Part shown: positions 4,261-61,469 of the stretch, in pieces | How the letters are laid out: the number at the start of each line of letters is the position of its first letter | Position numbering within the stretch: position 1 is the first letter of the stretch | Assembly (NCBI GenBank): GCA_013420905.1 | Contig: JAAXNY010000008.1 | Coordinates: forward strand, 2,108,001 to 2,172,000 | Reading direction: 5' to 3' | Origin: Collybia mongolica | Lineage: Eukaryota; Basidiomycota; Agaricomycetes; Agaricales; Clitocybaceae | DNA: 64,000 nucleotides | Notes under the pieces: model-generated | What the model saw: the letters and a program-made list of their open reading frames with translations, nothing else | Database searches by the model: none | What the model was told of the DNA's origin: nothing | Made by a program: the position numbers and the translations under genes

Positions 4261-4692
4261 ATGGGACACAAGTCCAAGAAAGATGCAGCAGCGCTGATAC
4301 TTGCTCCATACCTCTACTTCGGCCCACGAACATCGACGACATCAGCCTTTCTTGAGTCCCAGCAGATAACCCACGTTCTCAGCATTGGCGCCAGCCCCGT
4401 ATCTAGCGGCCCAGGTATCGTCTACATGCGCCTAACGCTACTAGAAGGGGAAAATTCCAGTCCATTGCTCGCGCTCCCCACTATTGCCACGGCCTATTAA
4501 TAAAGCATCGTGGAATGAGCCTCAAAGGTGCACTAGGACTTGTCATCCACGTATGCCCCCCAGTCTGGCCTAGTAATACCGAGATTATAAAGCAGTTACA
4601 ATAACTAGATGTACCTACCATACGGCTCCCCGTCCCTGGAAGTTGAGCTCCTCCAGAATAAGTTGGAAGATAGGGTAACATTATTTGCATAA
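4261..4692 (+). pseudogene. Dual-specificity phosphatase pseudogene (catalytic loop deleted)
   Basis: The first frame begins MGHKSKKDAAALILAPYLYFG and continues with ITHVLSIGASPV and VYMRLTLLEGEN, the beta-strand core of DSP phosphatases. It then jumps to LPTIATAY, which matches the helix after the catalytic loop (SRSPT.. AYL). The HCxxGxSR P-loop and about 40 residues before it are missing. At 4498 the frame is lost: dropping one T would restore AYLIKHRGMSL, and the next frame reads GMSLKGALGLVIHVCPPVWP then NTEIIKQLQ. A further shift gives YGSPSLEVELL and EDRVTLFA, the usual DSP C-terminal tail. Deletion plus at least two frame breaks make this a dead gene. A spliced rescue seems unlikely because no suitable splice sites flank the missing loop. 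Confidence 0.75.
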
Positions 4693-5201
4693 ATCAGTGG
4701 TCTTTCGCTTCACGCTGCCATTTTATGTATGCCGACTTTCCCGAAGCCAGCTCCGAAAGATATGCAGTGACTGAATCGGTAGGAATTGTTGTGTGAGGTG
4801 TATTTGCCTAGCTGCCGGAGTGCCGTAGCTTCCGTCTTGGGCCTATTAGTCTGCCTTTATGTTTCAACATCTGGAAACCTGCGACTCGGGAAGCATATAT
4901 TATCACACACAGTTATCTCCAGAGCCTAAAGTCGCTGAAGATGGCCAGACTCTGCACATTGCAATTAAGGACAGGAAGCTTCAAACCCCGTCGTTGAAAC
5001 ATGATGACTAAGTAGTTTAATGGGGGGCGTGCATCGATCAAAGGTATTGCGAGGGGGTGATACAACGAGATACAGATGCAGGGTAAGATAACTAAAGTAT
5101 ATGGATACGCGGCGTGAGGTAGTAAAACAACAAGTTGAACAGAAAACATGACGAACACACTCAGTGGCACAACAAAGCATACAGTCCCTCCTCCCTCAGT
5201 A
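4693..5201. other. Intergenic between phosphatase remnant and RhoGEF 3' end
   Basis: About 500 bp with no recognisable coding signal. It probably holds the 3' UTR of the leftward RhoGEF gene. Confidence 0.4.
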
Positions 5202-40853: not shown

Positions 40854-43800
40854 TTAAAAAGCAATTTCATTCATGTGGTGGTCAGCATATTTATTAATGT
40901 AGTAGGATTGAAAGGCAGTGAGTGAATCCGTATGCTTGAATCCACAAGGAAGAAACTGGTCACCATAGACAGGTATTAGGTGTGCCCCACGAACCATACT
41001 ATCCACATGGACAACAGCTGTTATGTGGCATCCATCCTCGTCGCACTCTGGCTCCACTATCCACATTCCTGTTTCTTCACATGGCTCATCGCAGCCATCT
41101 GGATGAATGAACCACTCAATGAGGGCACATGGGTACAGGATCTGCCAGAATGTGAATGAGAAGAATAGTAACACCTTGACAACATGCAGGCCCAGTATGC
41201 CCTCCTGCAGTGGGTCTTTTTCAAGGAAGGCACAATCACGCTGTGCTGGACGACTTCACCAGATTGGCACTGATTGTATTTGCTGTCAATGCATCTCACC
41301 AACCCCAGAATGATCACTTGGGGCATAATAGGTAGCTACAGCTGAATGGAAGACCGATATTCGGCTGTCAAACATGGGGCATTCAGAGATCTCCACATCA
41401 GCTGCTGTTGTTGCAGTGTTGGGGTGAAGTTGGTCATACAGGAAACGCCTGATATTATCAAGGAGTTGAGGTTGTTTGATGTGTTTTCCGAGTTCACGGG
41501 CTCCAGAAGGATAGTTTTGTGCTGGAAGAAGATGAGTAATGAGGAATAGATAAGCATTGTATATCCATACCTCATGCCTTTGCTAAGGAGACAGCTGCCT
41601 CGACTCTTGGGCCATCCACAGCTTCATCGTCAGGATCCGTAGTGGTTATCAGGGGTAGTGGAGGTGAGATAGGCTGGATGTGAGGAGCAAGACATGCACC
41701 ATCTAACATGTGGCAGGCCACAAAGTCGACACGTGCTGCAGCTAACTTATCCAGTTGTTGATTGGTGACAAGCATTTGGCCAAGGGCCTCGAAATGGCTT
41801 GAATGCCGCCATGGCTCCTTTACAGCTTTGATGTGTTTGGATTCTGTGATTGAGGAGCAAAGGCCATTTGGCGCACCAAACATCTTGATTAGTTCTCGAT
41901 AATGGACCATTGAATGTTGGTGTGGGAGGGAGATTCCCTCTAACCGGATGCTGGACTCCTCAAAAGCTTGACAATGGCGATGAAATTGCACTAGAGCATT
42001 GTTGATTTTGCCCAGAGTAGTTGTGGTAATAATGTTACGTCGTACAAGGTAGCAAAAGTCAAGGAAAGCCCTTAGAGCTTTAACCATTGACTGCGGTACA
42101 TGGCCAGCTATTGCTGGAAGGTAAACCTTCATGAGCGCCTTTGAATCATCTCCTGTCCATTGCTTGAAACCCCAGCCTTGGGGAAAACATTGCAAGCCAG
42201 GGAATGCAGGCACTGCTGCTATGTGGCGGTCAATGTTGGCCATGACAGTGGCTGCACAAGTTTTGCTGTGGGTTTTTACGAGATATTCACCAATCCATGT
42301 TACAAGGTGATCCTTAAATGTTCCCTTAATTAACTGATGAAGCAGATCTGGTGCAAGGAGTTCATGAATGTCAGCTCAAGGGAAGCTGGAAGTGAATGGC
42401 TATAATGCACTCAGTAAGATTTAATCTAACTGAACAGAGGATGTGCTTACCATGACATCACCCACAATGCCATACTCTTCCCAAAGTGTTTTATAATCAA
42501 GACTCTTCATTAGCAGTTGAGTGTGTGCATGAGATTGTTGCCCAGCTCTACCATCAAGGCAGTCCCGATGAGCTGTACATCTGTGGTAACTCGTCAATGA
42601 TTGCATGGATTTGAATTCATATAATTGACTCGCCGTGCACACCACCCTTGAACAATACATCCCAAGAGGACTTGCTCAGGGTAGTCAGCAATATAAGGGC
42701 CAAGACCATGGATTGCATGGCGGAGATGTCCATCAGGAAATTGGGTCACTTTGGGAACAGTCATACCAGCATGAAGTGGTTCAAGACTGGTTTCTAGAGA
42801 TGAGTGGAATAACTGGGGCCGGAATTTCCAAAATGTTGGGTCATCAGCATATTGTTGGTCAGCTGTAGTGCTTGGGGTCAGAAATATTGGTTGTGATAAG
42901 AGTAAGGAAAGTACTTTTTGGGATGGAAAGGAAACCAATGATGCTGATGGTGTTTCGGTGTCCTTGTCAGACATTATTGTGAACATTTCCCACAGATGCA
43001 TACAGTGGGTAATATTCATTTTGTCCTGTTGCAACTGAAACAGTTGTCTTGTCACTTCCAAGAATAATTGGCACAAAGACCCCCCCATGTGTCTGGGGAT
43101 CCTCTGAAATGATATCAGCCTGATTCCAGGACCAGTTTCTGCTCATAAAGTTTGACCAAAGATGCTCATCATTGGTGCCGAATTCCTGTAATGGCACCAT
43201 ATCAATTTCACCTTTAAAATCAGGGTTTGCAAGTTGGTTCCAAATGACAGCCCTTGGATCGCAATACCATACTTCATAATCAGCTACCATCCATGGTGGC
43301 GCCTCGTCTTCAGGCACTTCACCAGAGTATTTGATAGCAAATGACAACCATGGTTTGCCTCCATGTGGTATGGCATCAATGCTGCTATAGAGATCTTTGT
43401 GACCCGAAAATGGTGGTTCTCCCCCTGCCCCAAGAGAGGCAGCCCAAAGATCAAGTAGGTCATCTATGTGTGTTCCCGGCATCTGATTGTGTCAGTATAA
43501 GAAGTCTGCTATTTCAAATTCAACACAAGTGGAGAATGGATCCCAATTGTCTGATGATAGGTCTAGCATCACATAGCCTGGGGCAGGTGCACCAGGAGGC
43601 AGATCATTTCCATTAGAATCACATGGTGTACCTATTTCTATTTCATGACAACATGATCAATGTTTAAGTATTTATGACAACTCACCATCAAGAATTGGAT
43701 GATACAGAGTGTGTGAGCCAGTGTGATTTGGTATTTGTTGCTCATCATTGCCACAATCCATGATAACATCTTCAACTGGAATGTGAAGGCTTGCAGGGAG

Positions 43801-43962
43801 GGATTGATCAGTTTGCAAAGGTACATAATGGTTTTGAATCTGTTGATGAGCACTATTGATGTGACATATCATTCTGCTCAATGTTGTGAAACCTTTCTTG
43901 CATGTCAGCATTGTTCCATGGATGCATGCAAAGATACAAGGCTTGTGGTTGTTTTGTGGCAT
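40854..43962 (-). pseudogene. Plavaka-type transposase gene, inactivated
   Basis: Covers a whole transposase. The N-terminal C2H2-like finger (TCKKGFTTLSRMICHINSAH) is followed by MPGTHIDDLLDLWAASLGAG, AIKYSGEVPEDEAPPWMVAD, FVPIILGSDKTTVSVATGQN, HGLGPYIADYPEQVLLGCIV, HELLAPDLLHQLIKGTFKDH, FPQGWGFKQWTGDDSKALMK and APNGLCSSITESKHIKAVKE, ending ...YYINKYADHHMNEIAF at 40854. At least two Arg positions are now TGA (minus strand 43494-43492 and 42378-42376), each explained by CGA to TGA. Length and order match full Plavaka transposases. It was intact once and is now dead. Confidence 0.8.
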
Positions 43963-44149
43963 AAGATTTAGGTATGAAGGAGTGGGAAAGCTGTTGAGCT
44001 GTGTTTTTGTGAGCGTGGTGTAGGGTAGCAGTGTAAACCAAGCATGTAGATTGGTAGTGATGAGGGTGAGGAAGCAGAGAAGAACTGTAGCATTTAGTTC
44101 AATTGAAAGGCTTTATGTTATCACAAAAATATACACACTGAATTGTAAA

Positions 44150-44553
44150 CCAATCTTCGATTTTTGCAAATGAGGCTCCTGCATGGGGGCCAACAAGTAA
44201 TTTAAGATTTGGCATGGCTTTGAACCAGCAAATGAATTAGTTGATAATTTGCCTCAGTTCAAAGAGTTGGCAGAAATGGCCAGTGGACTTCCATTAAGTC
44301 ACTAAGTTGAAGAAGTTGCCACATCCCAAGCATTTCTCAAACCCATCCTCAATATCATGAAAACTCCTCTAGCCTCTATGTACATTAAAACTCAGGTAAT
44401 CAATAAAGATGCACATCCTGGTCAGCCTGACATAGATGAAGAGACATTGAGGCATCCAATTCCCAGGCGCAAGTGAACTAAAGCAGAAATAGTCACTTTG
44501 AAGCAGGAAGCCCAAGCAAAGAAAGAAGCTAAGGCAGCAGCTGTGGTTGCCAA
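44150..44553 (+). pseudogene. C-terminal part of an unidentified ORF, interrupted by the composite transposon
   Basis: Degenerate frame with QVINKDAHPGQPDIDEETLR, HPIPRRK-stop-TKAEIVTLKQE and AQAKKEAKAAAVVA, lysine/alanine-rich. At 44,553 it is cut by the left end of the composite. If the composite is removed and one AA kept, the frame continues across 60,928 as N-P-T-H-S-L-I-G-stop. The family is not recognised. The internal stop at RRK-TGA also fits CGA to TGA. Confidence 0.4.
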
Positions 44554-44619
44554 CACTGTGAAACTGAGAATAGATGAAATTCAACCCTGTGTTTCATCCT
44601 CTTAAATAAGAGAAATAAT

Positions 44620-45080
44620 ACATTAAAAATATGAAATTCATTCAATTAACAATCCTAAAATGTAATGAATTTCATCTCAAAGATGTTTGAAAACACACCC
44701 CCTGTAGGGGGAAAAATGGAGGGAAAACCCCCCTTTAAGGTATAATTTGATGGATGAATTTCATGTGAAATTTGTCTGTATTCATACCCCTCATAATTCA
44801 CCCTCATGGGATGAATTTCTTACTATCAAGGGTGCTATACTAACCTTTCAAAAAGGATGAATTTCATACTAATAAGGGGTGAGAATAACACCCTTGCAAG
44901 TCTTACATGGGGGATGAATTTCATACTATTAAGGGCAGAAATAACACCCTTGCGAGTCTTACATGAGGGATGAATTTCATACTATTAAGGGCAAAAATAC
45001 TGGCATTTTATGAGAGATGAAAATCATATGTTCGAATTCATCCCATTTTCCTCACTTAAATTCATCCTCTTTTTCATCAT
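44620..45080. repeat. Sub-terminal repeat tract, 5' end of element
   Basis: GATGAATTTCATACT recurs at 44856, 44913 and 44969 (period 56-57 bp) with AAGGG..A.AATAACACCCTTGC(A/G)AGTCTTACATG between copies. Related GATGAATTTCAT words extend on both sides. Likely transposase-binding repeats. Confidence 0.75.
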
Positions 45081-45222
45081 TTTACTGGATTGTTTTCGGA
45101 TGAAAGTAGTACTAACTTTTCATCCATTGAAAAGTTGAAATGCACTCATTTTTATTTGGATATTTCATCCCCTTATAGATGTTTAAATTTGTGTGATTCA
45201 ACATTTAACAATATTCTAATGA

Positions 45223-46138
45223 TTAGTAGGCTTCTGATTCATTCCCTTCCTCATCCTCCTGGTCCTCACCCTCCTGGTCCTCACCCTTCTGGTCCCCATC
45301 CTCTTCCCCCTCATCACTACTATCTACTTCATCCTCATCATGCTCATTTAAGTCAATGTCGACATCCATTTCCTCCTCATCATCAGCATTACTGCCCCCT
45401 ACTGTATTTCCAGTCTCATTTGTATACCCACATTTACGAGCATAGGCGCGTTTGTTCTTCAAATGTGACTTGATAAATTCTTGAGTGGCCCAGCCATTAT
45501 GGAATTTTTTGAGGTATGTATGCCGACTTTCGGCCTGAAATAAATTATTTAAATGAGTAACAAAGCAGCAAAGAAAAGACTTACCACGCGGATGATTTGA
45601 CTAATGACTACTGTAGGTTGCCTGTGCCAAACAACCGAGTAGTTAAGGCCTGCGTTACCAACTAAACTACAAATGCAGCGCTATTACTTGTAAAAAAAAA
45701 GATTGGAGCAAAGGGTTTTAAGAAGTAAAACTTACATGAATGGCCTTGTATAAATTGGAATCATCTTGGAGTTGCATTTCAGCCTGGAGATTGAATCCAT
45801 TCCCTGCAACGCCGCGCGGTGGGCGTGGTATGACATTCTTCTGCTGTTCTTTAGCATGGGCAGCTTTGCGAAGAGCTACGAGTTCAGCTAGTCACGTTAG
45901 TATGGTATAGGAAGTATGCAAAAAAAAAAGTAATACCTTTCATTTTCTTCATTTTTGCTTCCATTGCCATTGCCTCTGATGTATTTATCCGTGTACCTGG
46001 TGAAACAAAATGTAATAATAGGTAACATGTTTCCATTTGAAAATCACAGTATCCACCTTTAACTCTCTGGGATGAGCCCGAAGACAATGCCACCTTGTGA
46101 GATTGCTTCGCTTTTTGAAATGCGGTAGACTTAGCCAT
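45223..46138 (-). CDS. Transposon-borne small acidic-tailed protein (gene A)
   Basis: From ATG 46138: MAKSTAFQKAKQSHKVALSS, splicing to TRINTSEAMAMEAKMKKMK, then AELVALRKAAHAKEQQKNVI and GFNLQAEMQLQDDSNLYKAI. A last exon holds AESRHTYLKKFHNGWATQEF and KSHLKNKRAYARKCGYTNET, and then a run of Asp/Glu to the stop at 45223. It has a Lys-rich N-terminal helix and an acidic tail. Similar small proteins accompany Agaricomycete transposons as far as I recall; function unknown. One middle exon junction (about 45,560-45,690) is not certain. It is divergent from gene B, with a 359-bp shared promoter. Confidence 0.65.
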
Positions 46139-46497
46139 AGTTTTATGGAAAAGGGTGCGTTGGAGAAAGAGCTGGTGGCAAAGGTGAAGAAAGGCGAGAC
46201 TGAGCAAATGAGGAGATGCTGGAAGACACAGAGAAAGAGGGTTCTTTTAAATTTGAGGTGGAGCAGGTTCCATCCCCAAGGACAACAGAACCGAGCTCAA
46301 ATTAATTCGCACAGGGGATGAAAAAGAAAAAAAAATGGGTTCTGGGCTTTGGGGTGGGCAAAGGGATTTCTATAATCTGACTAGCTTTGGATTCTGGATC
46401 TATAACTGTACTCGGGTAGAACTGTTGGGGTTTGGGGCATGAGCACAAAATAAAACATATAAAGGACCTTGGAACTCAAAAAAATAATCACAACGTA
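46139..46497. promoter_or_regulatory. Bidirectional intergenic region between transposon genes A and B
   Basis: Separates the start codons of two divergent genes and must contain both promoters. No clear box is identified. The mirror copy lies at 58982-59340. Confidence 0.5.
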
Positions 46498-47090
46498 ATG
46501 GCCACTGGCCTCACACCCAACCCTCCAGACACTTCCCCTACCCACTGTGTGCTGCAGAATGATGATGTTTCCAGTCACGTTGTGGAAAGCACAACAGAAT
46601 CCGAGACTGAATCAGACTGTGGACCATTTGATTGTGCTTTCTTTGGTCCTTGCTCACCGGAGAATCAACTTGGTCTATTGGAAAATAGAAACTGGTTTAT
46701 GGAGCTTTGCAAGTCCGAATCTTCAAGCCATGGATCCAGTGTACCCAAGGATAACAGTAAGCAATAATCTGACTCCACGTGATGCTGAAGGAAAAACTCT
46801 TACCTAGGTGATATTGAGACGGAGGCAGACATAGTCCCTGAAGAGTGTAAGGTGAATATCAGCACTATCAACCCATTGGAGGGGAAGGTATGTGAATCGA
46901 CTCACATAACCAGTTTCCGACAGTATCTTATTAATTGACAACAAAGTTTATTATTCAGATCTGTGTCAAAGGTGGCAACTTAATCAATCCGGTATTCAAT
47001 TTTAACTTCCAGGAACAAGTAAAGAGCAAAAAACGGAGACGTAAATCGAGTAGAAGGGACGATGAGCAGGGAAAACGGCAAAAATTATGA
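46498..47090 (+). CDS. Transposon-borne small protein with basic nuclear-type tail (gene B)
   Basis: ATG 46498 opens MATGLTPNPPDTSPTHCVLQ and a Ser/Glu/Asp-rich exon (VVESTTESETESDCGPFDCA, then FFGPCSPENQLGLLENRNWF). Two further exons add GDIETEADIVPEECKVNIST and ICVKGGNLINPVFNFNFQEQ. The end is QVKSKKRRRKSSRRDDEQGK RQKL, a bipartite nuclear-localisation-like cluster. About 165 residues. No known domain. Its position opposite gene A on every copy suggests a conserved cargo gene. Confidence 0.55.
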
Positions 47091-47158
47091 TGTGTATATA
47101 CATGTGATGCAGTAGAGTCCCAAAAGGTATATGCAAAATTGAAAGTAATGCCTGTTAA

Positions 47159-49860
47159 TTATTTCACGCGAGTTTTACGAGCATCCTTTCGAAGAGCAGT
47201 CATTATTCCCTCATTTTGTGCCTTTTCTTCTTTGGTTTCATGGCCAATGCAGAGTACATCAGGGCTTAGTTCCAAATGATCCCCCAAAAGTGTTTCGTGG
47301 CCTCCCTCAGTCCGGTTGATGATGGCCAATATCATAATTGGCTGGCCATTCTCATAACGATGGTGAATTCGGCGGACATATTGGCCCAGGTGGTCACCTT
47401 CAACTACGACCAACAATCCGTTATCACGTGTAGGATTGGGACGTTTTGGTGTGAGGTCTCCTGGAGGCAAGGATCCTGATGTCTTGTAGTGGTTGAACCG
47501 GACTGATAATGCTCCCTCTATCCGCACTACGGAGACCACCATTTCTTTACCTTGATATTGCCCACCTGTAACCAACACCTTTAATTTAATATCAATAAGC
47601 CGTGGATCTAATAATGGGTGAGCAGGTCCCTGCTGTTGTGATATAGTTGGTGGAGGGGAGGCTTGAGAGGAGGATCCTACATCAGGCATTTGAGATGAGG
47701 GGTTCCAGGCCGGCGTCAAGTGGTGAAAGTCAGGTATGGGCGTGCTACCCCCCACTGCTGCAGTAGTGGCAGCTGCGGCAGGTTCCTGGGGAGGGGGGAA
47801 TTTGGCAACATGGCCTGGGAGGGGGACAAATAATTTGTTCTTGGGTGGGGCGAATTTGTTTAATCTGAGGCGAGACCTTGGGGGAGAAATTAGCTCATAA
47901 TGGATATGAAGAAGAATATAATATTTATGAAGATTCTACAACATCATCGTAGTCCAGAACTTTGCCACTGAATGGATGTGCAGGATTCAAGTGAATAAAT
48001 TGAACAGTTACTCGGAGTCCACTGAGTGTAGTTTTCGAGAGTTGAACATCTTTGATTACTGCACAAGAACCCTTCATTGCATGTCCTGTTTTGACAACCA
48101 AAACCTCAAGCCCTATCCAGGGAACTTCCTCATGTCTAATTGGGACAGTTGGTACATTACTCAATGTTGGTGGTTGACTGTGGAGTATTATCGGAGGGTC
48201 AACTACTTTCACCCAGTTCCTATGGACTTCGAGTGGCTGTTTAAAAGTAAATTACAATGTGACTGGCATAATATCTTAAGTTTTTACCTTGAGGGAGTTT
48301 GGACTGATGTAACTCTGCGGTCCTTGTGTTTCAAGACGTTCGACAATGTAGACATATTCCTCTGTCACCTCAACTACCCATCCCTTTTCCCCTTGGAGAG
48401 CCCCACTGATTACTTCTGCGAAATGGCCATGAGCGATGTACTTCCACATATTGGACCACAGGACCATGTGTAAACCCTCCCCCATTTCTAGTTCCACCTC
48501 TGCCGAATCAATACTGACGGACTGGATGATACCCCTCTTAGAGGATTCCTTTATGACCACCTGTTCGCCTTCAAAAAATTGCCATTCTGAAGGGCATGGG
48601 AATCGCGCGCTTTTGATTTCAGGGTGAGGACAGCATAGAAACAAGTCCATCATCTTGCTTTGTAAGGAAACGGGGACACACGATACCGAACCAAAGCCAT
48701 AAGTTCTGCGTTCAAGGAAAAATTCAAATTTGTGACCAAAAGCAGCAAAATGGCCCATAGTTTTGCTGTCAACAATAGTGACTCTGGGGTGAGTTTTGAT
48801 GATTTGGTCCCATTTTTCATCGTCAAACAAACCCGGCTCAGAGCGGAGGGTACCTCGTTTCCTTTTCTTGGAGGAATCTCCGTCTTGAAGGGGAGGGAGG
48901 CAAGGTAACAGCAGGACTTCCAGTTTTCCCCAATTCTCTACTGAGGAAACATATCCTACATCCCCTTTGTAGAGCCCCCTACAAATCGTGACCCAACCTC
49001 CAGCAGAAGGGGTCTCTTCAGAATGCCTTAAATTCAACAGAGACACCCATTCCCCCAGCTTCACCCCCATAATACCACCCCGAGGGCGAAACATTGAGGG
49101 TGATGATTTTAGAAGGGCTAAAAGGTCGGCATTCATTGTGCCCTCGATGTAGAACCAGCCATGTATGGAATCTCGACAAAATGCTGATCTGAGCCGATGT
49201 CGAGAGTCTGTATTATTGAGGAGAAAGGAAACGGCGTCTCTTTCCCTCCCCTCCTAGAATACATTGCGTCAAGTCTCAGTCATAGTATCAGTAAGATGCA
49301 GGTACTGATGCTCACCACACAACGGACTCTCATTAATGGGCTGTCTTTGCCTGTTGGAAGTTGTTCCACATCCAGACCAGGGTGTCTTGAAAGGCCTTCA
49401 TTGACTGGGGGTTGTTCCTCGTCCGGATTGCGGGGTTTTGGCATGCCTTCATCAGAAAAGTATCCATTTGCAAGGCAATAATAATAGTCATCTTCATTGT
49501 TCCCCTCCATATCGCTGTCCCCGTCCGACTCCTCCTCACGACTTGCCCGTGATCGTCTCATTATCCCATGAATAAATTTATCAAATTTGTCATCGTTGTT
49601 GAGAGGGCTGTTGGCGGAAGTTGACAGTCTTGGTGCACTGCCTGACTGCCCGTTGTCCTCGTTGACCTCATCGTCAATGAAGTCATCTGTAAAATGGGTT
49701 GGTATTAACGTGCTTTGAATCTGAATGGGTAGATTGGCATACCGAGTCCTGGCTCCTCTCCAAAGAGATCGTCCTCCCCCTCATTGTCCACCTGTGCTTT
49801 GAGGTCAATGAAGCGGTGTACCATGTTGCGGACATTGTCGGGCATGGTCTTGTCCTGCAT
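47159..49860 (-). CDS. Spt5-like KOW-domain protein carried by the transposon (gene C), left-arm copy
   Basis: Resembles the transcription elongation factor Spt5 in layout. An acidic N-terminus (DDEVNEDNGQS, REEESDGDSDMEGNNEDDYY) is followed by an NGN-like segment (HGWFYIEGTMNADLLALLKS). Then comes a KOW motif, VTICRGLYKGDVGYVSSVEN, and basic SSKKRKRG. Further KOW-type repeats follow: FEGEQVVIKESSKRGIIQSV, WIGLEVLVVKTGHAMKGSCA and VLVTGGQYQGKEMVVSV. There is a Pro/Ser linker, then GLLVVVEGDHLGQYVRRIHH, ending at 47159. About 860 residues over six or so exons. The start is the first ATG of the earliest exon seen (MQDKTMPDNVRNMVHRFIDL); an upstream exon is possible. Divergent from the transposase. 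Spt5-like genes are otherwise single-copy host genes, so its cargo role is notable. Confidence 0.65.
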
Positions 49861-50027
49861 ACCGGTGATGTCCTTAGGTTTCCTGTAGGATCATTATTAG
49901 CTTTTATTAATGTTCTTAACAAAGTCTTATAGTTTTGTATTGGAATTCAATTAACTACTACAAATTCTACTATACTAATCGTAATCTATCAAGAAAAAGT
50001 ACTTACAACAAGGGGGAGGGGGCCAAC

Positions 50028-50325
50028 GGGCGATGGTTGTGGTACGAGAGCAAGAGGGAAAGTGTGCGAAAGCGGGCTGCCAACACATGATACAGCTCGG
50101 AATGTTCAGCCGTCGGGCATCTCGGTCAATAAGGCCATGTGATCAAATTGGGCATCTCGGTCATATCACTCTTATACAATGTGACTCGGATTTCTCAGGT
50201 AACGATTTAGCCATAAAGGCCTGATGCCCGAGATGCCTGACGGCTGAACATTCTGAGCCGTATCATGTGCTGGCAGCCTGCTTTCGCACACTTTCCCCTT
50301 TGCTCCCGTACCACAACCATCGCCC
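50028..50325. promoter_or_regulatory. 98-bp imperfect palindrome between transposase and Spt5-like gene
   Basis: Arms 50028-50125 and 50228-50325 are equal in length and match at 90 of 98 positions; all eight differences are A/G. The arms contain GGGCGATGGTTGTGGTACG and AATGTTCAGCCGTC. The region lies in the only intergenic space between the divergent gene C and gene D, so it may be a two-way promoter or a nested fold-back insertion. The mirror copy is at 55154-55451. Confidence 0.8.
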
Positions 50326-50693
50326 ACCGCAACTTCTGCCCAGCCTCCTGGCCCCTTCCCCAGCCTCCCTCCTCAGTATTTCGGTAAGTAAAAGACATTT
50401 TTTAGTATATAGTATATAGTAGTTCTATACAAATGTAGTCAGTATGTTATAAGTACTCAATATTGAATACAATATAAGATTTTGCAACCTGAGCTAAAAA
50501 TAAAGAAGCTAATGATCCATTGTAAATAGGTGAACTAGGACTGTTGCCGCAGGCACAACGTGCGCAACGTCCCACGTTTCATAAGACTGAGGAGGTCATT
50601 GCGGCTTTGTAGGGGCCTCGAGACCTGGTGCATACACATTTGCCTCGTTTACATACCAACTTATATATTTTACTCTCCAGGTGAACGCGCATT

Positions 50694-53362
50694 ATGGGTG
50701 GTAAGACAGTGCTTTGTGCATGTGGCTGCACCAAAAGGGTCAACTCCAGGACTGAGAGCCGGCACTTGAAAGGGAAAGGGCACTCTCACCTCATGTCAAA
50801 AATCCTATCGCAGAACCGGTCTCTTATCCAGAGCCTCAACCAGGAAGATCAGCCCCAACGGAAAACGTCATCCTGTCCCCATCCCAAGCAAAAAGTTATT
50901 GGATCCACCCCCCACCCACAAGCCCAACTAGCAAAGAAACTGGCCCCTAGTTCTACAAAGGGCAACACCTCTTTCAGCTCTCAAAATAATGCAGAAGAAA
51001 TTATTGATAATTTGACGGGCGAGGCAGGACCATCTGGATTTCATGACAGCTCTCCCGATCCACCATTGGCGCCATCCTTACCTCCATTGGAGGATTGCTC
51101 AAACAAATATGGCTTGTCCAACTTATGCCGCTCTTCTCGCATTGCAGGACATATCAATCAGCTCAGCCAGCAACGGTGGGGGCTTAATTCAAGACAACGA
51201 TTTACTGTTGATGAGGATGATGGGGATAGCAACGACGACAAGATTGGATCTGGAGAAGACAAAGGCAACGACAATATGGGGGGGGACTTTGATGGTTCCA
51301 ACAAAGACTTTGGGGAAGACACTGATGGATTTGAAATGCCAATCGCAGAGGCAAGCCAGGCAGGGATCTCAGTATGGGATCTCCTTGGGGAGGGATTTAT
51401 GAAGGAAGTCTCGCAATTAGGTATGTACATTGTTATCATTATGTGCATCATATTAACTAGTTTACAGACCAAATGCTAGATATGAGTGATATGAAGCTCA
51501 TCCAGTTCTTTGCCCTGAAAGTTCAAGATGGCCTAATGGATAGAACGTTCCAGAAAATCCGCTATATAACTTCAACAGAATTGCTGAAGAATACACAGAA
51601 ACGTATTCAGTTTCTCTCTGGTTTTCAGCCTGTATGCTATGACTGCTGTCGTTCATCTTGTGTCTGCTACACTGGCCCATACGAAGCCCTCAAACAATGC
51701 CCTAAATGTAATTCTGACCCCTATAAATCTGATGGGACAACACCCTATTCATATCTAGAGTATCTCCCTATTATTCCCCGACTCTGTGCAATGCTTGGAA
51801 ATTTCTCGTATGCTCGAAAAATGCAGTATCGATCCAATCACAAACATGACCCAAGAAAAATGACAGATATCTTTGACGGCACCCATTATCAACTACTCCA
51901 GAAGACATTCGTTACAATTGGTGACAAAGAACTTCCAGAGTGGTTTTTTTCTGATCCTCGTGATATTGCACTTGGGTTATCTACAGATGGCTTTGGTCCT
52001 TTCAAGCGCCGTACCAAGACAGCATGGCCTATAATCATGTTTAATTATAACCTCCCTCCTGAGGAACGCTTTCTCAAGGATAACATAATTCGTCTAGGGA
52101 CTATTCCAGGGCCCAAAAAGCCTGACGATGCAGATTCATTTTTTTGGCCTGTAGTTCAGGAGCTTCTGCAGCTCAAGATTGGGGTTTCAGCCTTCGATGG
52201 AATCAGCAAAGAAATCTTCCTACTTCATGCTCACCTCATCGTCGTCTTTGGCGATATTCCTGCAATGTCAATGCTCATGCGCATGAAGGGCCACAATGCA
52301 ATATATCCATGCCGGATGTGTACTATTCGGGGAGTTCGCATTCCCTTTTCACAAAAAACAACACACTACATTCCATTGCAACAAAATGGCTTTCCAGACC
52401 CTCAACAACAATATCATGCATCCACACTTCCACTACGAGACCATGCAACATTCTTAAGACAAGCAAAGAAGGTCCAATATGCCTCAAACACTGCAGAATC
52501 TGAACACCTTGCTACTAAATATGGTGTCAAAGGCATTCCACTACTCAGTACTTTGAGTTCCCTCTCTTTTCCAGTCTCATTTCCCTATGACTTTATGCAC
52601 CTTATATGGTCCAATCTCATTCCAAATCTGATTTCCCTGTGGACTGGAAATTACAAAGATCTTTCCCATGATGGTGCAGGCTATGTGTTAGCACCAACTG
52701 TATGGGAAGCTATTGGTCAGGCCACAGCAAAGGCTGGGGATACAATTCCTGCAGCATTTGGTTCAAGGGTCCCAAATATTGCATCAGAAAAGGCACAGAT
52801 GATTGCTGAAACCTATTCAATCTGGACTTTATATATTGCACCAACTCTCCTTAAAGGACGATTTACAAGTCCGCAATATTATACACACTTTATTAAATTA
52901 GTTAGGTTATTAAACCTTTGCCTTCAATTTGAGATTACTCAGGATCAAGTTGATGAACTTGAAAGGGGTTTTAATAGCTGGGTTGAGAAATATGAAGAGC
53001 AAGTATTTTGATATATATTTAATTTTGAACATGATCTGATGATTTTCCAGGTTGTACTATAACCATGATCCAATGCGGGTATCTACATGTCCTCTAACCA
53101 TCCATGCCCTTCTACATATTGCACCAACTATTAGGGCTATGGGGCCAGTCTGGGCATATTGGGCATTTCCAATGGAACGTTATTGTTAGACATAGCTACT
53201 AATACCCATCATAAAATCATCTATTACAAAGATTTGGGGGCAACAGAATTTGTTGATATTGATCAAGTACAATGTTTAATTGGTTGGATTAAAGACTGTG
53301 GCAAATGGGCACTTATTGACCAAAGCCAATTATTGACTCAAGTACATAGTATGGACCAATAG
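50694..53362 (+). CDS. Plavaka-type transposase with internal deletion (gene D)
   Basis: Exon 1 (50694-51420) has a Cys knuckle (VLCACGCTKRVNSRTESRHL), a Pro/Ser linker and an acidic stretch. An intron leads to DQMLDMSDMKLIQFFALKV and the catalytic core: KRIQFLSGFQPVCYDCC, YDxxx-free SDPRDIALGLSTDGFGPFKR (first catalytic Asp candidate), FGDIPAMSMLMRMKGHNA, CRMC, and SFPYDFMHLIWSNLIPNLIS. After a further intron (about 53008-53050) LYYNHDPMRVSTCPLTIHAL and AYWAFPMERYC follow. The frame then breaks at about 53,185 and resumes in another frame at HHKIIYYKDLGATEFVDIDQ VQCLIGWIKD, the family's C-terminal landmark. About 200-250 residues normally lie between these two points. Probably non-functional or partly functional. 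Confidence 0.75.
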
Positions 53363-53464
53363 TACTGGTCACATATATATATATAGATCAATTAACACAG
53401 TCATTTTATACTACATATAACACTTCATTCTAATCTAACCAAAATCTCAATTTCTTCTTTTCTA

Positions 53465-53881
53465 AATGATTCATCTAAGGCAGAAAAGTCATCCCATAAA
53501 CCCACTATTTGTGGGATGAAATACCTTCTATGCTGAACTTAAATCATCCCACATATTCCACCTTTTATGGGATGAAAGTTCACTCTCTAATAGATTAAAA
53601 TGATCTAATAAAACCCACCCATTATAGGATGAAATTCCCCTCTTTTTCACTGGATTAAAATTGTCCCATATAATTCACCTCTAATGGGATGAAAGTTCAC
53701 ACCACTAAGGGATGAAAATTTCTGAAATTATAAGAGCAGAAATTCATCCTCTCAAGGGATGAAATATCTGGGATGAAGTTTCATCCCAATTTCATACCCT
53801 TTAGATTCATCCACTAAACTTAGGAAATGCTGCTTTCATCCATTAAGTGGGGGAAAAACCTCCCCCACCAGGTGCACAGTG
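53465..53881. repeat. Sub-terminal repeat tract, 3' end of element
   Basis: Repeated GGGATGAAA / TTTCATCCC words (for example 53513, 53570, 53688, 53709, 53754) spaced 30-60 bp, then a GGGGG...CCCCC fold near 53850-53868 and the terminal CACAGTG. Mirrors in style, though not in sequence, the 5' tract. Confidence 0.65.
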
Positions 53882-54785
53882 TGTGTATTCTTCAGCAATT
53901 CTGTTGAAGTTATATAGCGGATTTTCTGGAACGTTCTATCCATTAGGCCATCTTGAACTTTCAGGGCAAAGAACTGGATGAGCTTCATATCACTCATATC
54001 TAGCATTTGGTCTGTAAACTAGTTAATATGATGCACATAATGATAACAATGTACATACCTAATTGCGAGACTTCCTTCATAAATCCCTCCCCAAGGAGAT
54101 CCCATACTGAGATCCCTGCCTGGCTTGCCTCTGCGATTGGCATTTCAAATCCATCAGTGTCTTCCCCAAAGTCTTTGTTGGAACCATCAAAGTCCCCCCC
54201 CATATTGTCGTTGCCTTTGTCTTCTCCAGATCCAATCTTGTCGTCGTTGCTATCCCCATCATCCTCATCAACAGTAAATCGTTGTCTTGAATTAAGCCCC
54301 CACCGTTGCTGGCTGAGCTGATTGATATGTCCTGCAATGCGAGAAGAGCGGCATAAGTTGGACAAGCCATATTTGTTTGAGCAATCCTCCAATGGAGGTA
54401 AGGATGGCGCCAATGGTGGATCGGGAGAGCTGTCATGAAATCCAGATGGTCCTGCCTCGCCCGTCAAATTATCAATAATTTCTTCTGCATTATTTTGAGA
54501 GCTGAAAGAGGTGTTGCCCTTTGTAGAACTAGGGGCCAGTTTCTTTGCTAGTTGGGCTTGTGGGTGGGGGGTGGATCCAATAACTTTTTGCTTGGGATGG
54601 GGACAGGATGACGTTTTCCGTTGGGGCTGATCTTCCTGGTTGAGGCTCTGGATAAGAGACCGGTTCTGCGATAGGATTTTTGACATGAGGTGAGAGTGCC
54701 CTTTCCCTTTCAAGTGCCGGCTCTCAGTCCTGGAGTTGACCCTTTTGGTGCAGCCACATGCACAAAGCACTGTCTTACCACCCAT
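53882..54785 (-). pseudogene. Truncated transposase (gene D), right-arm copy
   Basis: From ATG 54785 the first exon is identical to the left copy. Exon 2 continues for only about 40 codons, to ...ELLKNTQ, and is then cut by the terminus of the neighbouring element. No catalytic core remains. Confidence 0.85.
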
Positions 54786-55153
54786 AATGCGCGTTCACCT
54801 GGAGAGTAAAATATATAAGTTGGTATGTAAACGAGGCAAATGTGTATGCACCAGGTCTCGAGGCCCCTACAAAGCCGCAATGACCTCCTCAGTCTTATGA
54901 AACGTGGGACGTTGCGCACGTTGTGCCTGCGGCAACAGTCCTAGTTCACCTATTTACAATGGATCATTAGCTTCTTTATTTTTAGCTCAGGTTGCAAAAT
55001 CTTATATTGTATTCAATATTGAGTACTTATAACATACTGACTACATTTGTATAGAACTACTATATACTATATACTAAAAAATGTCTTTTACTTACCGAAA
55101 TACTGAGGAGGGAGGCTGGGGAAGGGGCCAGGAGGCTGGGCAGAAGTTGCGGT

Positions 55154-55451
55154 GGGCGATGGTTGTGGTACGGGAGCAAAGGGGAAAGTGTGCGAAAGCA
55201 GGCTGCCAGCACATGATACGGCTCAGAATGTTCAGCCGTCAGGCATCTCGGGCATCAGGCCTTTATGGCTAAATCGTTACCTGAGAAATCCGAGTCACAT
55301 TGTATAAGAGTGATATGACCGAGATGCCCAATTTGATCACATGGCCTTATTGACCGAGATGCCCGACGGCTGAACATTCCGAGCTGTATCATGTGTTGGC
55401 AGCCCGCTTTCGCACACTTTCCCTCTTGCTCTCGTACCACAACCATCGCCC
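55154..55451. promoter_or_regulatory. 98-bp imperfect palindrome, right-arm copy
   Basis: Mirror of 50028-50325; arms 55154-55251 and 55354-55451. Lies between the divergent starts of the truncated transposase and the Spt5-like gene. Confidence 0.8.
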
Positions 55452-55618
55452 GTTGGCCCCCTCCCCCTTGTTGTAAGTACTTTTTCTTGATAGATTACGA
55501 TTAGTATAGTAGAATTTGTAGTAGTTAATTGAATTCCAATACAAAACTATAAGACTTTGTTAAGAACATTAATAAAAGCTAATAATGATCCTACAGGAAA
55601 CCTAAGGACATCACCGGT

Positions 55619-58320
55619 ATGCAGGACAAGACCATGCCCGACAATGTCCGCAACATGGTACACCGCTTCATTGACCTCAAAGCACAGGTGGACAATGAGG
55701 GGGAGGACGATCTCTTTGGAGAGGAGCCAGGACTCGGTATGCCAATCTACCCATTCAGATTCAAAGCACGTTAATACCAACCCATTTTACAGATGACTTC
55801 ATTGACGATGAGGTCAACGAGGACAACGGGCAGTCAGGCAGTGCACCAAGACTGTCAACTTCCGCCAACAGCCCTCTCAACAACGATGACAAATTTGATA
55901 AATTTATTCATGGGATAATGAGACGATCACGGGCAAGTCGTGAGGAGGAGTCGGACGGGGACAGCGATATGGAGGGGAACAATGAAGATGACTATTATTA
56001 TTGCCTTGCAAATGGATACTTTTCTGATGAAGGCATGCCAAAACCCCGCAATCCGGACGAGGAACAACCCCCAGTCAATGAAGGCCTTTCAAGACACCCT
56101 GGTCTGGATGTGGAACAACTTCCAACAGGCAAAGACAGCCCATTAATGAGAGTCCGTTGTGTGGTGAGCATCAGTACCTGCATCTTACTGATACTATGAC
56201 TGAGACTTGACGCAATGTATTCTAGGAGGGGAGGGAAAGAGACGCCGTTTCCTTTCTCCTCAATAATACAGACTCTCGACATCGGCTCAGATCAGCATTT
56301 TGTCGAGATTCCATACATGGCTGGTTCTACATCGAGGGCACAATGAATGCCGACCTTTTAGCCCTTCTAAAATCATCACCCTCAATGTTTCGCCCTCGGG
56401 GTGGTATTATGGGGGTGAAGCTGGGGGAATGGGTGTCTCTGTTGAATTTAAGGCATTCTGAAGAGACCCCTTCTGCTGGAGGTTGGGTCACGATTTGTAG
56501 GGGGCTCTACAAAGGGGATGTAGGATATGTTTCCTCAGTAGAGAATTGGGGAAAACTGGAAGTCCTGCTGTTACCTTGCCTCCCTCCCCTTCAAGACGGA
56601 GATTCCTCCAAGAAAAGGAAACGAGGTACCCTCCGCTCTGAGCCGGGTTTGTTTGACGATGAAAAATGGGACCAAATCATCAAAACTCACCCCAGAGTCA
56701 CTATTGTTGACAGCAAAACTATGGGCCATTTTGCTGCTTTTGGTCACAAATTTGAATTTTTCCTTGAACGCAGAACTTATGGCTTTGGTTCGGTATCGTG
56801 TGTCCCCGTTTCCTTACAAAGCAAGATGATGGACTTGTTTCTATGCTGTCCTCACCCTGAAATCAAAAGCGCGCGATTCCCATGCCCTTCAGAATGGCAA
56901 TTTTTTGAAGGCGAACAGGTGGTCATAAAGGAATCCTCTAAGAGGGGTATCATCCAGTCCGTCAGTATTGATTCGGCAGAGGTGGAACTAGAAATGGGGG
57001 AGGGTTTACACATGGTCCTGTGGTCCAATATGTGGAAGTACATCGCTCATGGCCATTTCGCAGAAGTAATCAGTGGGGCTCTCCAAGGGGAAAAGGGATG
57101 GGTAGTTGAGGTGACAGAGGAATATGTCTACATTGTCGAACGTCTTGAAACACAAGGACCGCAGAGTTACATCAGTCCAAACTCCCTCAAGGTAAAAACT
57201 TAAGATATTATGCCAGTCACATTGTAATTTACTTTTAAACAGCCACTCGAAGTCCATAGGAACTGGGTGAAAGTAGTTGACCCTCCGATAATACTCCACA
57301 GTCAACCACCAACATTGAGTAATGTACCAACTGTCCCAATTAGACATGAGGAAGTTCCCTGGATAGGGCTTGAGGTTTTGGTTGTCAAAACAGGACATGC
57401 AATGAAGGGTTCTTGTGCAGTAATCAAAGATGTTCAACTCTCGAAAACTACACTCAGTGGACTCCGAGTAACTGTTCAATTTATTCACTTGAATCCTGCA
57501 CATCCATTCAGTGGCAAAGTTCTGGACTACGATGATGTTGTAGAATCTTCATAAATATTATATTCTTCTTCATATCCATTATGAGCTAATTTCTCCCCCA
57601 AGGTCTCGCCTCAGATTAAACAAATTCGCCCCACCCAAGAACAAATTATTTGTCCCCCTCCCAGGCCATGTTGCCAAATTCCCCCCTCCCCAGGAACCTG
57701 CCGCAGCTGCCACTACTGCAGCAGTGGGGGGTAGCACGCCCATACCTGACTTTCACCACTTGACGCCGGCCTGGAACCCCTCATCTCAAATGCCTGATGT
57801 AGGATCCTCCTCTCAAGCCTCCCCTCCACCAACTATATCACAACAGCAGGGACCTGCTCACCCATTATTAGATCCACGGCTTATTGATATTAAATTAAAG
57901 GTGTTGGTTACAGGTGGGCAATATCAAGGTAAAGAAATGGTGGTCTCCGTAGTGCGGATAGAGGGAGCATTATCAGTCCGGTTCAACCACTACAAGACAT
58001 CAGGATCCTTGCCTCCAGGAGACCTCACACCAAAACGTCCCAATCCTACACGTGATAACGGATTGTTGGTCGTAGTTGAAGGTGACCACCTGGGCCAATA
58101 TGTCCGCCGAATTCACCATCGTTATGAGAATGGCCAGCCAATTATGATATTGGCCATCATCAACCGGACTGAGGGAGGCCACGAAACACTTTTGGGGGAT
58201 CATTTGGAACTAAGCCCTGATGTACTCTGCATTGGCCATGAAACCAAAGAAGAAAAGGCACAAAATGAGGGAATAATGACTGCTCTTCGAAAGGATGCTC
58301 GTAAAACTCGCGTGAAATAA
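55619..58320 (+). CDS. Spt5-like KOW-domain protein (gene C), right-arm copy
   Basis: Same exons and translation as the left-arm copy. Here the coding strand is plus: acidic N-terminus, NGN-like segment (about 56300-56400), first KOW motif at about 56480-56540, further KOW-type repeats at about 56900-57480, and a C-terminal repeat at 57880-58110. No frame damage is seen, so both copies could be expressed. Confidence 0.65.
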
Positions 58321-58388
58321 TTAACAGGCATTACTTTCAATTTTGCATATACCTTTTGGGACTCTACTGCATCACATGTATATACACA

Positions 58389-58981
58389 TCATAATTTTTG
58401 CCGTTTTCCCTGCTCATCGTCCCTTCTACTCGATTTACGTCTCCGTTTTTTGCTCTTTACTTGTTCCTGGAAGTTAAAATTGAATACCGGATTGATTAAG
58501 TTGCCACCTTTGACACAGATCTGAATAATAAACTTTGTTGTCAATTAATAAGATACTGTCGGAAACTGGTTATGTGAGTCGATTCACATACCTTCCCCTC
58601 CAATGGGTTGATAGTGCTGATATTCACCTTACACTCTTCAGGGACTATGTCTGCCTCCGTCTCAATATCACCTAGGTAAGAGTTTTTCCTTCAGCATCAC
58701 GTGGAGTCAGATTATTGCTTACTGTTATCCTTGGGTACACTGGATCCATGGCTTGAAGATTCGGACTTGCAAAGCTCCATAAACCAGTTTCTATTTTCCA
58801 ATAGACCAAGTTGATTCTCCGGTGAGCAAGGACCAAAGAAAGCACAATCAAATGGTCCACAGTCTGATTCAGTCTCGGATTCTGTTGTGCTTTCCACAAC
58901 GTGACTGGAAACATCATCATTCTGCAGCACACAGTGGGTAGGGGAAGTGTCTGGAGGGTTGGGTGTGAGGCCAGTGGCCAT
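58389..58981 (-). CDS. Transposon small basic-tailed protein (gene B), right-arm copy
   Basis: Mirror of the gene at 46498-47090, with identical translation in all exons compared. Divergent from the right-arm gene A. Confidence 0.55.
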
Positions 58982-59340
58982 TACGTTGTGATTATTTTTT
59001 TGAGTTCCAAGGTCCTTTATATGTTTTATTTTGTGCTCATGCCCCAAACCCCAACAGTTCTACCCGAGTACAGTTATAGATCCAGAATCCAAAGCTAGTC
59101 AGATTATAGAAATCCCTTTGCCCACCCCAAAGCCCAGAACCCATTTTTTTTTCTTTTTCATCCCCTGTGCGAATTAATTTGAGCTCGGTTCTGTTGTCCT
59201 TGGGGATGGAACCTGCTCCACCTCAAATTTAAAAGAACCCTCTTTCTCTGTGTCTTCCAGCATCTCCTCATTTGCTCAGTCTCGCCTTTCTTCACCTTTG
59301 CCACCAGCTCTTTCTCCAACGCACCCTTTTCCATAAAACT

Positions 59341-60256
59341 ATGGCTAAGTCTACCGCATTTCAAAAAGCGAAGCAATCTCACAAGGTGGCATTGTCTTCG
59401 GGCTCATCCCAGAGAGTTAAAGGTGGATACTGTGATTTTCAAATGGAAACATGTTACCTATTATTACATTTTGTTTCACCAGGTACACGGATAAATACAT
59501 CAGAGGCAATGGCAATGGAAGCAAAAATGAAGAAAATGAAAGGTATTACTTTTTTTTTTGCATACTTCCTATACCATACTAACGTGACTAGCTGAACTCG
59601 TAGCTCTTCGCAAAGCTGCCCATGCTAAAGAACAGCAGAAGAATGTCATACCACGCCCACCGCGCGGCGTTGCAGGGAATGGATTCAATCTCCAGGCTGA
59701 AATGCAACTCCAAGATGATTCCAATTTATACAAGGCCATTCATGTAAGTTTTACTTCTTAAAACCCTTTGCTCCAATCTTTTTTTTTACAAGTAATAGCG
59801 CTGCATTTGTAGTTTAGTTGGTAACGCAGGCCTTAACTACTCGGTTGTTTGGCACAGGCAACCTACAGTAGTCATTAGTCAAATCATCCGCGTGGTAAGT
59901 CTTTTCTTTGCTGCTTTGTTACTCATTTAAATAATTTATTTCAGGCCGAAAGTCGGCATACATACCTCAAAAAATTCCATAATGGCTGGGCCACTCAAGA
60001 ATTTATCAAGTCACATTTGAAGAACAAACGCGCCTATGCTCGTAAATGTGGGTATACAAATGAGACTGGAAATACAGTAGGGGGCAGTAATGCTGATGAT
60101 GAGGAGGAAATGGATGTCGACATTGACTTAAATGAGCATGATGAGGATGAAGTAGATAGTAGTGATGAGGGGGAAGAGGATGGGGACCAGAAGGGTGAGG
60201 ACCAGGAGGGTGAGGACCAGGAGGATGAGGAAGGGAATGAATCAGAAGCCTACTAA
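59341..60256 (+). CDS. Transposon small acidic-tailed protein (gene A), right-arm copy
   Basis: Mirror of 45223-46138. On this strand the exons read directly: 59341-59420, then the piece from 59482, then 59592-59741, and a last exon from about 59,945 to 60256 with the Asp/Glu tail. Confidence 0.65.
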
Positions 60257-60399
60257 TCATTAGAATATTGTTAAATGTTGAATCACACAAATTTAAACAT
60301 CTATAAGGGGATGAAATATCCAAATAAAAATGAGTGCATTTCAACTTTTCAATGGATGAAAAGTTAGTACTACTTTCATCCGAAAACAATCCAGTAAAA

Positions 60400-60860
60400 T
60401 GATGAAAAAGAGGATGAATTTAAGTGAGGAAAATGGGATGAATTCGAACATATGATTTTCATCTCTCATAAAATGCCAGTATTTTTGCCCTTAATAGTAT
60501 GAAATTCATCCCTCATGTAAGACTCGCAAGGGTGTTATTTCTGCCCTTAATAGTATGAAATTCATCCCCCATGTAAGACTTGCAAGGGTGTTATTCTCAC
60601 CCCTTATTAGTATGAAATTCATCCTTTTTGAAAGGTTAGTATAGCACCCTTGATAGTAAGAAATTCATCCCATGAGGGTGAATTATGAGGGGTATGAATA
60701 CGGACAAATTTCACATGAAATTCATCCATCAAATTATACCTTAAAGGGGGGTTTTCCCTCCATTTTTCCCCCTACAGGGGGTGTGTTTTCAAACATCTTT
60801 GAGATGAAATTCATTACATTTTAGGATTGTTAATTGAATGAATTTCATATTTTTAATGTA
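60400..60860. repeat. Sub-terminal repeat tract, right-arm mirror
   Basis: Mirror image of the 56-57-bp repeats at 44620-45080. It contains the one mismatch noticed between the arms (60702). Confidence 0.75.
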
Positions 60861-60925
60861 TTATTTCTCTTATTTAAGAGGATGAAACACAGGGTTGAAT
60901 TTCATCTATTCTCAGTTTCACAGTG

Positions 60926-61469
60926 AACCCAACTCACTCTCTTATAGGTTGAAATTTCATCCAGTTAATTGGAGAAAATTCTAATATCTTTTTTCATCTA
61001 AAGGATGGCTGAAATATGTGGGATGAAAATAAACTACTAAAATCACTCTTCTATAGGATGAAATTTCATCCAGTTAACTGGGGGAAAATTTAAAACTTTT
61101 TTTCATCTAATGGATGGCTAACATATTTTGGATGAAAATCAGCCACTAAATTCACTCTTCTATAAGATGAAATTTCATCCAATTAATTGTAGTTAATTGA
61201 AGGGATTTTTAATACATATTTTTATCTAATAAATGGCTGAAATATGGGGGATGAAAATCAGGCCACCAACTTCACTCCTTTACAGGATGAAATTTCATCC
61301 AATTAATGGAGGGAAAATTTAATACCTTTTTTCATCTATTGGATGGCTGAAAAATGTGGGGTGGAATTTCAGCCACAATTCATACCCCTTTAATTCAGCC
61401 ATTTAAGTGTGGAAATTCATATTTCCACACTTAAATGGCTGAATTTCATGATCCAATGGGGACACAGTG
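60926..61469. mobile_element. 3' sub-terminal region and terminus of an older resident Plavaka-like element
   Basis: Four units of about 110-120 bp start at about 60936, 61045, 61155 and 61274. They hold TTCATCC-rich palindromes (GGATGAAATTTCATCC at about 61057 and 61287; variants elsewhere), followed by the large hairpin at 61392 and a terminal CACAGTG at 61463-61469. This matches the end structure of the composite's element, but the sequence differs. The composite appears to be inserted in it. Confidence 0.6.
61392..61445. repeat. Perfect 25-bp hairpin
   Basis: The stem from 61392-61416 pairs without mismatch with 61421-61445 around a 4-nt TCAT loop. It includes TTCAGCCATTTAAGTGTGG. It sits 18 bp inside a CACAGTG terminus, where a transposase-binding or cleavage structure would be expected. 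Confidence 0.9.

Follow-up and report, generated by a model that had tools for sequence, protein, structure and literature searches.

The palindromic locus

The window, a 64,000-bp stretch of Collybia mongolica DNA (NCBI GenBank assembly GCA_013420905.1, contig JAAXNY010000008.1, positions 2,108,001 to 2,172,000 of the forward strand), contains a 16.4-kb palindrome at window positions 44554-60925, which is composed of two copies, hereafter A and B, of an EnSpm/CACTA-like transposon lying in opposite orientations. Judging from its termini, its central junction and its flanks, the palindrome is probably a scar of rearrangement formed where it now lies within this family and not a unit that was transposed as a whole. 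The two copies, their junction and the repeats on either side are located as follows.

44554..53881, + strand: copy A, EnSpm/CACTA-like, with both termini (CACTGTG...CACAGTG), 9,328 bp (terminus and alignment comparison)
44554..51597, + strand: left palindrome arm, positions 1-7044 of A (99.986% over 7,044 bp)
51598..53881, + strand: asymmetric centre, the 3' quarter of copy A, occurring once (self-alignment and copy comparison)
53881..53882, no strand: junction where A's 3' terminus CACAGTG ends and position 7044 of the inverted sibling B follows directly
53882..60925, - strand: positions 7044-1 of copy B, forming the right arm, without B's 3' part (self-alignment)
42292..44553, - strand: left flank X, a portion of a genuine Plavaka element (PF18759 within 42292-43410), broken off at 44553 where A starts with its 5' end
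60926..61469, + strand: right flank D, the terminal 544 bp of a different EnSpm-like repeat, cut at 60926 by the 5' end of B

Alignment of 44554-51597 with 60925-53882 confirmed the mirror arms described in the initial annotation: they are 7,044 bp long, align without gaps at 99.986% identity with a sole mismatch at positions 44777/60702, and enclose the 2,284-bp centre (51598-53881) reported there. Both outer ends are, as had been stated, the CACTGTGAAACTGAG 5' end of the element, and the symmetry stops at the arm ends, with zero symmetric bases outside the palindrome. Genome DNA searches were made in this single assembly with at most the 40 best candidates scored per search; across the initial 2 kb, the best of the other copies reaches about 99% identity to the window arms, so the match between the arms is not due to chance.

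Copy B is inverted relative to A and runs from the junction to 60925, where its 5' end lies. The exact joint between the 3' end of A and position 7044 of B supports the earlier proposal of an element nested inverted within a sibling whose 3' part is gone; no partner fragment beginning at position 7045 was found among the scored matches, the nearest beginning at 7021. About 687 bp are deleted inside copy A in the transposase region, near 53186; at least 14 other copies show a 687-bp gap at the same point in alignment to A, and the deleted piece is seen in a copy on C7.

Element identity and genes

The genes and repeats of the element are listed below, with their mirror positions in the other arm.

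51461..53011, + strand: Transposase_21 (Tnp2, EnSpm/CACTA) open reading frame (ORF), running into the centre (PF02992, E=3.6e-25)
50685..51479, + strand: ORF of a presumed N-terminal transposase exon, no Pfam match (mirror at 54000-54794, - strand)
47159..49780, - strand: Spt5-like gene, several exon-sized ORFs (mirror at 55699-58320, + strand)
44855..44999, + strand: 56-bp subterminal tandem repeats, 2.6 copies (mirror at 60480-60624)

The ORF at 51461-53011 scores 88.9 bits against PF02992 (cut-off 28.6). In the available portion of a survey covering fungal families, EnSpm elements are given CAC..GTG termini and a 3-bp target site duplication (TSD), and Plavaka elements, reconstructed from Agaricomycotina, are given either TGT..ACA termini with a 2-bp TSD (PlavakaA) or CATCA..TGATG termini with a TSD of 2-3 bp (PlavakaB) (PMC12730594). 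Neither pair of Plavaka termini is present in the window element, which has CACTGTG..CACAGTG. Among 14 single copies, CACTGTG stands at all 14 of the 5' ends and CACAGTG at 13 of the 3' ends, the remaining one being CATAGTG, and a 3-bp TSD was found in seven (the probability of seven or more by chance is about 7e-10). The name Plavaka used in the initial annotation does not hold: none of the 119 genomic matches to PF18759 lies inside 44554-60925, six ORFs gave no match to the domain at E<=0.1, and the nearest matches are in the left flank (42292-43410). Since it combines Transposase_21, CAC..GTG termini and 3-bp TSDs with no PF18759 match inside, the element is, on sequence criteria, EnSpm/CACTA-like and not Plavaka.

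A CRMC motif is present in the 516-aa Transposase_21 ORF; C(2)C and H(3-4)H motifs between the second D and the last E are given for EnSpm in the portion of the survey at hand (PMC12730594), and the H(3-4)H spacing was not seen in this ORF alone, with the later exons unjoined. A comparison of the transposase with solved structures gave no match under E=0.5. The statement that four genes are contained twice stands in part, and is too strong because the Transposase_21 part (ORF 51461-53011) is whole only once, mostly in the centre; B retains the preceding exon-sized ORF plus 137 bp of the Transposase_21 ORF.

The element also carries a relative of the transcription elongation factor Spt5. The match is located in ORF 48276-49253, with a KOW domain above the Pfam cut-off (E=3e-5) and an Spt5-NGN domain below its own (E=0.005), and the Spt5 chain 8qsz_Y of the PDB matches the gene with E=2e-8. 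A literature search on KOW/SPT5 in basidiomycete transposons found none. An imperfect internal inverted repeat of about 300 bp (79%) is present in each arm (50028-50325, mirror 55154-55451), with the Spt5-like gene on one side of it and the transposase gene on the other.

Other inverted pairs in the genome

A search of the genome with a 3-kb 5' query, in which the best 40 of 190 candidates were scored, returned 31 element termini beginning at base 1, ten of which form five inverted pairs measuring 8.9-20.8 kb from end to end. The search for other copies with two 5' ends, proposed in the initial annotation, thus yielded four further pairs with their 5' ends outward.

C5:1397278-1418050: inverted pair, 5' ends outward
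C11:395372-411534: inverted pair, 5' ends outward
C4:762855-783438: inverted pair, 5' ends outward
C7:261581-270465: inverted pair, 5' ends outward

The five pairs lie on five contigs and have distinct sequences and centres. When 32 ends were placed at random, the mean was 0.12 pairs and five were never reached in 20,000 trials, the five compared here including the window pair, which had prompted the search. In the C7 pair a 3' terminus is joined to position 2005 of the inverted sibling, a junction found on both arms, and the arms of the C5 pair are 9.6 kb long. A second copy of the window double was not seen among the matches listed.

Flanking repeats and target site duplications

The flanks of the palindrome are two different interrupted repeats. 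Two other copies of X (L070 and L071; all three candidates scored) run on past the boundary, with mutual homology for about 990 bp on its far side; the missing half of the Plavaka element turned up in these two copies only (best 40 of 612 candidates). On the right side, 26 other matches span all 544 bp of D (best 40 of 61 candidates), and the three D copies inspected remain alike over the 1,500 bp beyond the boundary. Neither continuation sits across the palindrome, as the interior of D is not on the left and the continuation of X is not on the right, and in the copies inspected the two flanking repeats continue neither into each other nor into the palindrome element. A balanced inversion is disfavoured, since the search located the other half of the Plavaka element in its two further copies alone and the window lacks it; with the best 40 of 612 candidates scored, a short orphan piece could be missed.

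It had been noted that both ends are flanked by AA. This is literally so, and it is not a TSD, since the TSD of the family is 3 bp long and the flanks read caa and aac. None of the five doubles with two outer 5' ends has a TSD, compared with seven of the 14 singles, a contrast that is weak taken alone (Fisher p=0.11). The empty-site check suggested in the initial annotation gave no scored copy joining the two flanks of any of the five doubles; for the joined flanks of C5, C11, C4 and C7 (best 40 of 332, 40 of 462, 15 of 15 and 40 of 132 candidates, respectively) no scored copy crosses by more than 7 bases, and more than 30 copies end at the boundary for each of the C7 right flank and the C11 left flank. 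As a control, the seven TSD-bearing singles were examined in one combined query (best 40 of 612 candidates), and four of them gave flank-spanning copies, which cover the whole joint at the C16 site (28 copies), C11:1940396 (nine) and C10 (one) and part of the joint at C6:3550232 (three).

The right-flank element contains 109-bp tandem repeats with GATGAAATTTCATCC-like motifs (60934-61360), which resemble the subterminal repeats of the palindrome element itself.

Arm identity and probable gene conversion

Within each of the five pairs the outer 2 kb differ by 0-1 mismatches, and all 26 sequences compared (the ten arms and 16 others; six more 5' ends lie outside this set) are 20 or more mismatches away from their closest neighbour outside the pair. 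All 29 private variants of the five left arms were found on the right arms too, the count covering left-arm variants, with variants confined to right arms outside it. The C11 arms show 0 differences in their outer 2,366 bp followed by 18 single-nucleotide polymorphisms with one 2-base indel within the 1,135 bp after that; farther in, another block shows 97.2% identity between them. Such a step in identity is typical of the edge of a conversion tract. The window, C5 and C11 arms stop exactly at the 5' termini; beyond the 5' ends there are three symmetric bases in C4 and about 15 bases aligning imperfectly in C7.

Gene conversion probably keeps the arms identical after their formation: its trace is seen as the tract edge of the C11 pair, and for the window pair it is proposed by analogy. 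Near-identical arms would then need no recent sibling, since conversion would account for their identity. Pairing of random siblings without homogenisation was rejected, as 20 or more differences per about 2 kb separate the remaining copies in the comparison. Damage resembling repeat-induced point mutation was likewise set aside as the source of divergence, the C>T changes having no strong context (CA 32, CC 23, CT 21, CG 4).

At C8:3233322-3240599 and C8:2017654-2032937, two inverted pairs are formed by a 2.86-kb derivative with an internal deletion, their 3' ends facing outward. The pairs show 0/2,863 differences within each pair and 9/2,863 between the pairs, and one member in each pair has a 3-bp TSD.

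Origin of the palindrome

In the origin proposed here, A would still have its 5' end in the target that it first entered, a Plavaka element, and B likewise in its own, a different EnSpm-like repeat; the 3' end of A would have entered B at position 7044 in inverted orientation, where the exact terminus-to-interior junction is seen, and the stretch separating the outer insertions would have been lost along with the 3' part of B. The halves of the interrupted partners are observed to be missing, and we infer a single deletion as the cause. One route to this arrangement, a serious possibility falling somewhat short of an even chance, would be an ordinary nested insertion of A into B, after which unequal homologous recombination of A with an upstream copy in the same orientation would delete the remainder. 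Nesting in relatives seems to occur in this genome, as suggested by the copy at C11:1940396, which has a TSD and flanks that match the transposase region over 53 and 58 bp at 79 and 84%. The other route, which appears rather unlikely, would be a single step of alternative transposition, in which the facing 3' ends of A and B would be cut, the spacer would leave as a circle and the 3' end of A would insert into B itself. The pattern looked for in such an event is present, namely the exact joint of A's 3' end with B position 7044, the 5' end of A still in X and the 5' end of B still in D, and the joint of a 3' terminus with an inverted sibling in C7 is a junction of the same type; nested insertion followed by deletion would leave an identical pattern of termini and flanks. 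This second route would require two 3' ends. A broader form of it is improbable, in which the EnSpm transposase would repeatedly pair the 3' ends of facing copies, circularise the spacer and self-integrate, producing 5'-capped palindromes throughout the genome that would then undergo conversion from arm to arm.

Several observations weigh against a scar formed in place. No reciprocal product, either the 3' part of B or the other half of X elsewhere, was found among the best 40 of 612 candidates. The joint of the C5 pair connects A position 9305 to B position 8346, 23 bp short of the 3' terminus, and no junction of a 3' terminus was seen at C4 or C11. To the weakness of the TSD contrast it may be added that the TSD is likewise missing in seven of the 14 ordinary copies; three of the seven control singles had no match among the 40 scored, the seven TSD-less singles fall outside that control, and the flank test of C4 is one-sided because its left flank has no other copies. 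Finally, the tract edge is present only at C11, and very recent formation could take the place of conversion for the window, C5, C4 and C7 pairs.

The initial annotation favoured a different course of events, in which A had inserted inverted into B and the resulting 16.4-kb block was then excised and reinserted by the transposase acting on two 5' ends. The outer ends are indeed intact and identical 5' termini, the 3' end of A lies exactly within B and the 2-bp AA is common to both flanks, yet the movement of the whole block is most improbable: a 3-bp TSD is absent, and as the flanks are different interrupted repeats, an insertion would have had to hit a pre-existing junction between them exactly. 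The five doubles give neither a TSD nor, among the scored copies, a spanning empty site, and the matches listed hold no second copy of the window double. A recent inverted duplication, in which template switching or broken-fork repair copied one element into its own inverted partner so that the arms were identical from the start, is also very unlikely, although it would agree with the near identity of the arms in all five pairs and with the centre of C5, which is joined without an intact terminus. A copy folded back in this way would be expected to carry flanking sequence, whereas the window, C5 and C11 arms end exactly at the 5' termini and the symmetry outside C4 and C7 is confined to the few bases given above; the exact 3' terminus at the window and C7 junctions points to the transposase, and an inner divergence of 1.6% beside 0% in C11 would not be expected.

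An assembly artefact, that is, a fold-back read or a misjoin at a repeat, was weighed as well, for a locus examined in the assembly itself. In favour of an artefact, another large palindrome is present in this assembly, a near-perfect one of at least about 18 kb centred near C18:29271 (L019, C18:25001-35000; L097/L098), which is exact in a probe at 20.0/38.5 kb, gives no match at 10/48 kb and is not bounded by ends of the window element; against an artefact, it stops before the contig end. Fold-back reads would give the same flank twice, whereas here the two flanks are unlike and each arm finishes at an element terminus; a single mismatch separates the arms, and five loci with distinct sequences and centres lie on five contigs. 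A fold-back read is unlikely, judging from the assembly alone, and an artefact of either kind has the slightest chance of the explanations considered. We retain an in-place fusion as the likely mechanism in the EnSpm family, in place of the moved Plavaka unit proposed before.

Comparison with known systems

The closest parallels, cited here from the available portions of the sources, come from elements that pair or nest with their like. In the maize double Ds and the Ac/Ds system, joint use of the ends of two elements generates deletions and composite joints with termini at the breakpoints, and in reversed-ends transposition the spacer may be released in circular form (PMC4270019, PMC3260210). 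Ac/Ds differs in being a plant system with 8-bp TSDs (PMC4270019, PMC3260210), and the window locus differs from it in its EnSpm-like family, in having 5' ends on both outer sides and in its nearly identical 7-kb arms. The alternative-transposition route outlined above would resemble both the maize reversed-ends transposition (PMC4270019) and that of Arabidopsis VANDAL21 (PMC12312487), where two neighbouring head-to-head DNA transposons give rise to deletions, inversions and circularised spacers; that element belongs to another plant family, the events were somatic and seen in reads, and fixed homogenised palindromes do not appear in the part of the source available (PMC12312487).

With respect to homogenised arms, the Drosophila element Galileo is similar, its inverted arms being more than 99% identical within a copy and about 7% different between parental copies, with flanks exchanged through ectopic recombination (PMC2775673). 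Its arms are its own long terminal inverted repeats, its TSDs are 7 bp long and its rearrangements are inversions (PMC2775673), whereas the window arms consist of most of one element and part of its sibling, and an inversion is not demonstrated. In fungi, two nearby copies of the DNA transposon MarorhAT-10 of Marasmius oreades were rearranged in one line, where one copy was inverted and the intervening sequence deleted (PMC9674265). By analogy, and as far as the accessible part of the source goes, this is a precedent in a fungus for neighbouring copies of a transposon undergoing rearrangement (PMC9674265); it differs in involving a hAT element and an event within a culture line, and homogenised palindromic arms are not described in that part (PMC9674265). 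The window element agrees with fungal EnSpm in its CAC..GTG termini and 3-bp TSD, and no palindromic doubles are described for the fungal EnSpm and Plavaka families in the portion of the survey consulted (PMC12730594). In the open-licence literature searched, as far as its texts were available, no comparable double of an EnSpm or Plavaka element was found for fungi.

The genome thus offers at least five inverted pairs of one element, each bounded by 5' ends and with near-identical outer arms, which open up the question of how such transposon pairs arise in a fungus. They also allow gene conversion between the arms to be measured, with the unpaired copies of the family serving as built-in controls.

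Further inverted arrangements

Two other loci on C9 have inverted configurations. At C9:1471673 (L003, C9:1470173-1476173) the element has both ends, and its 5' end is joined to position 8353 inside an inverted sibling, which is the mirror situation of the window junction, with a 5' and not a 3' end inside the sibling; its 3' flank is a repeat also present at the C16:745587 site. The region C9:1599501-1629500 contains a different sequence present as an inverted repeat (4,452 bp, 99.93%) and an element split at its position 3993-3994 with the halves in opposite orientations, a split that would fit recombination between inverted repeats.

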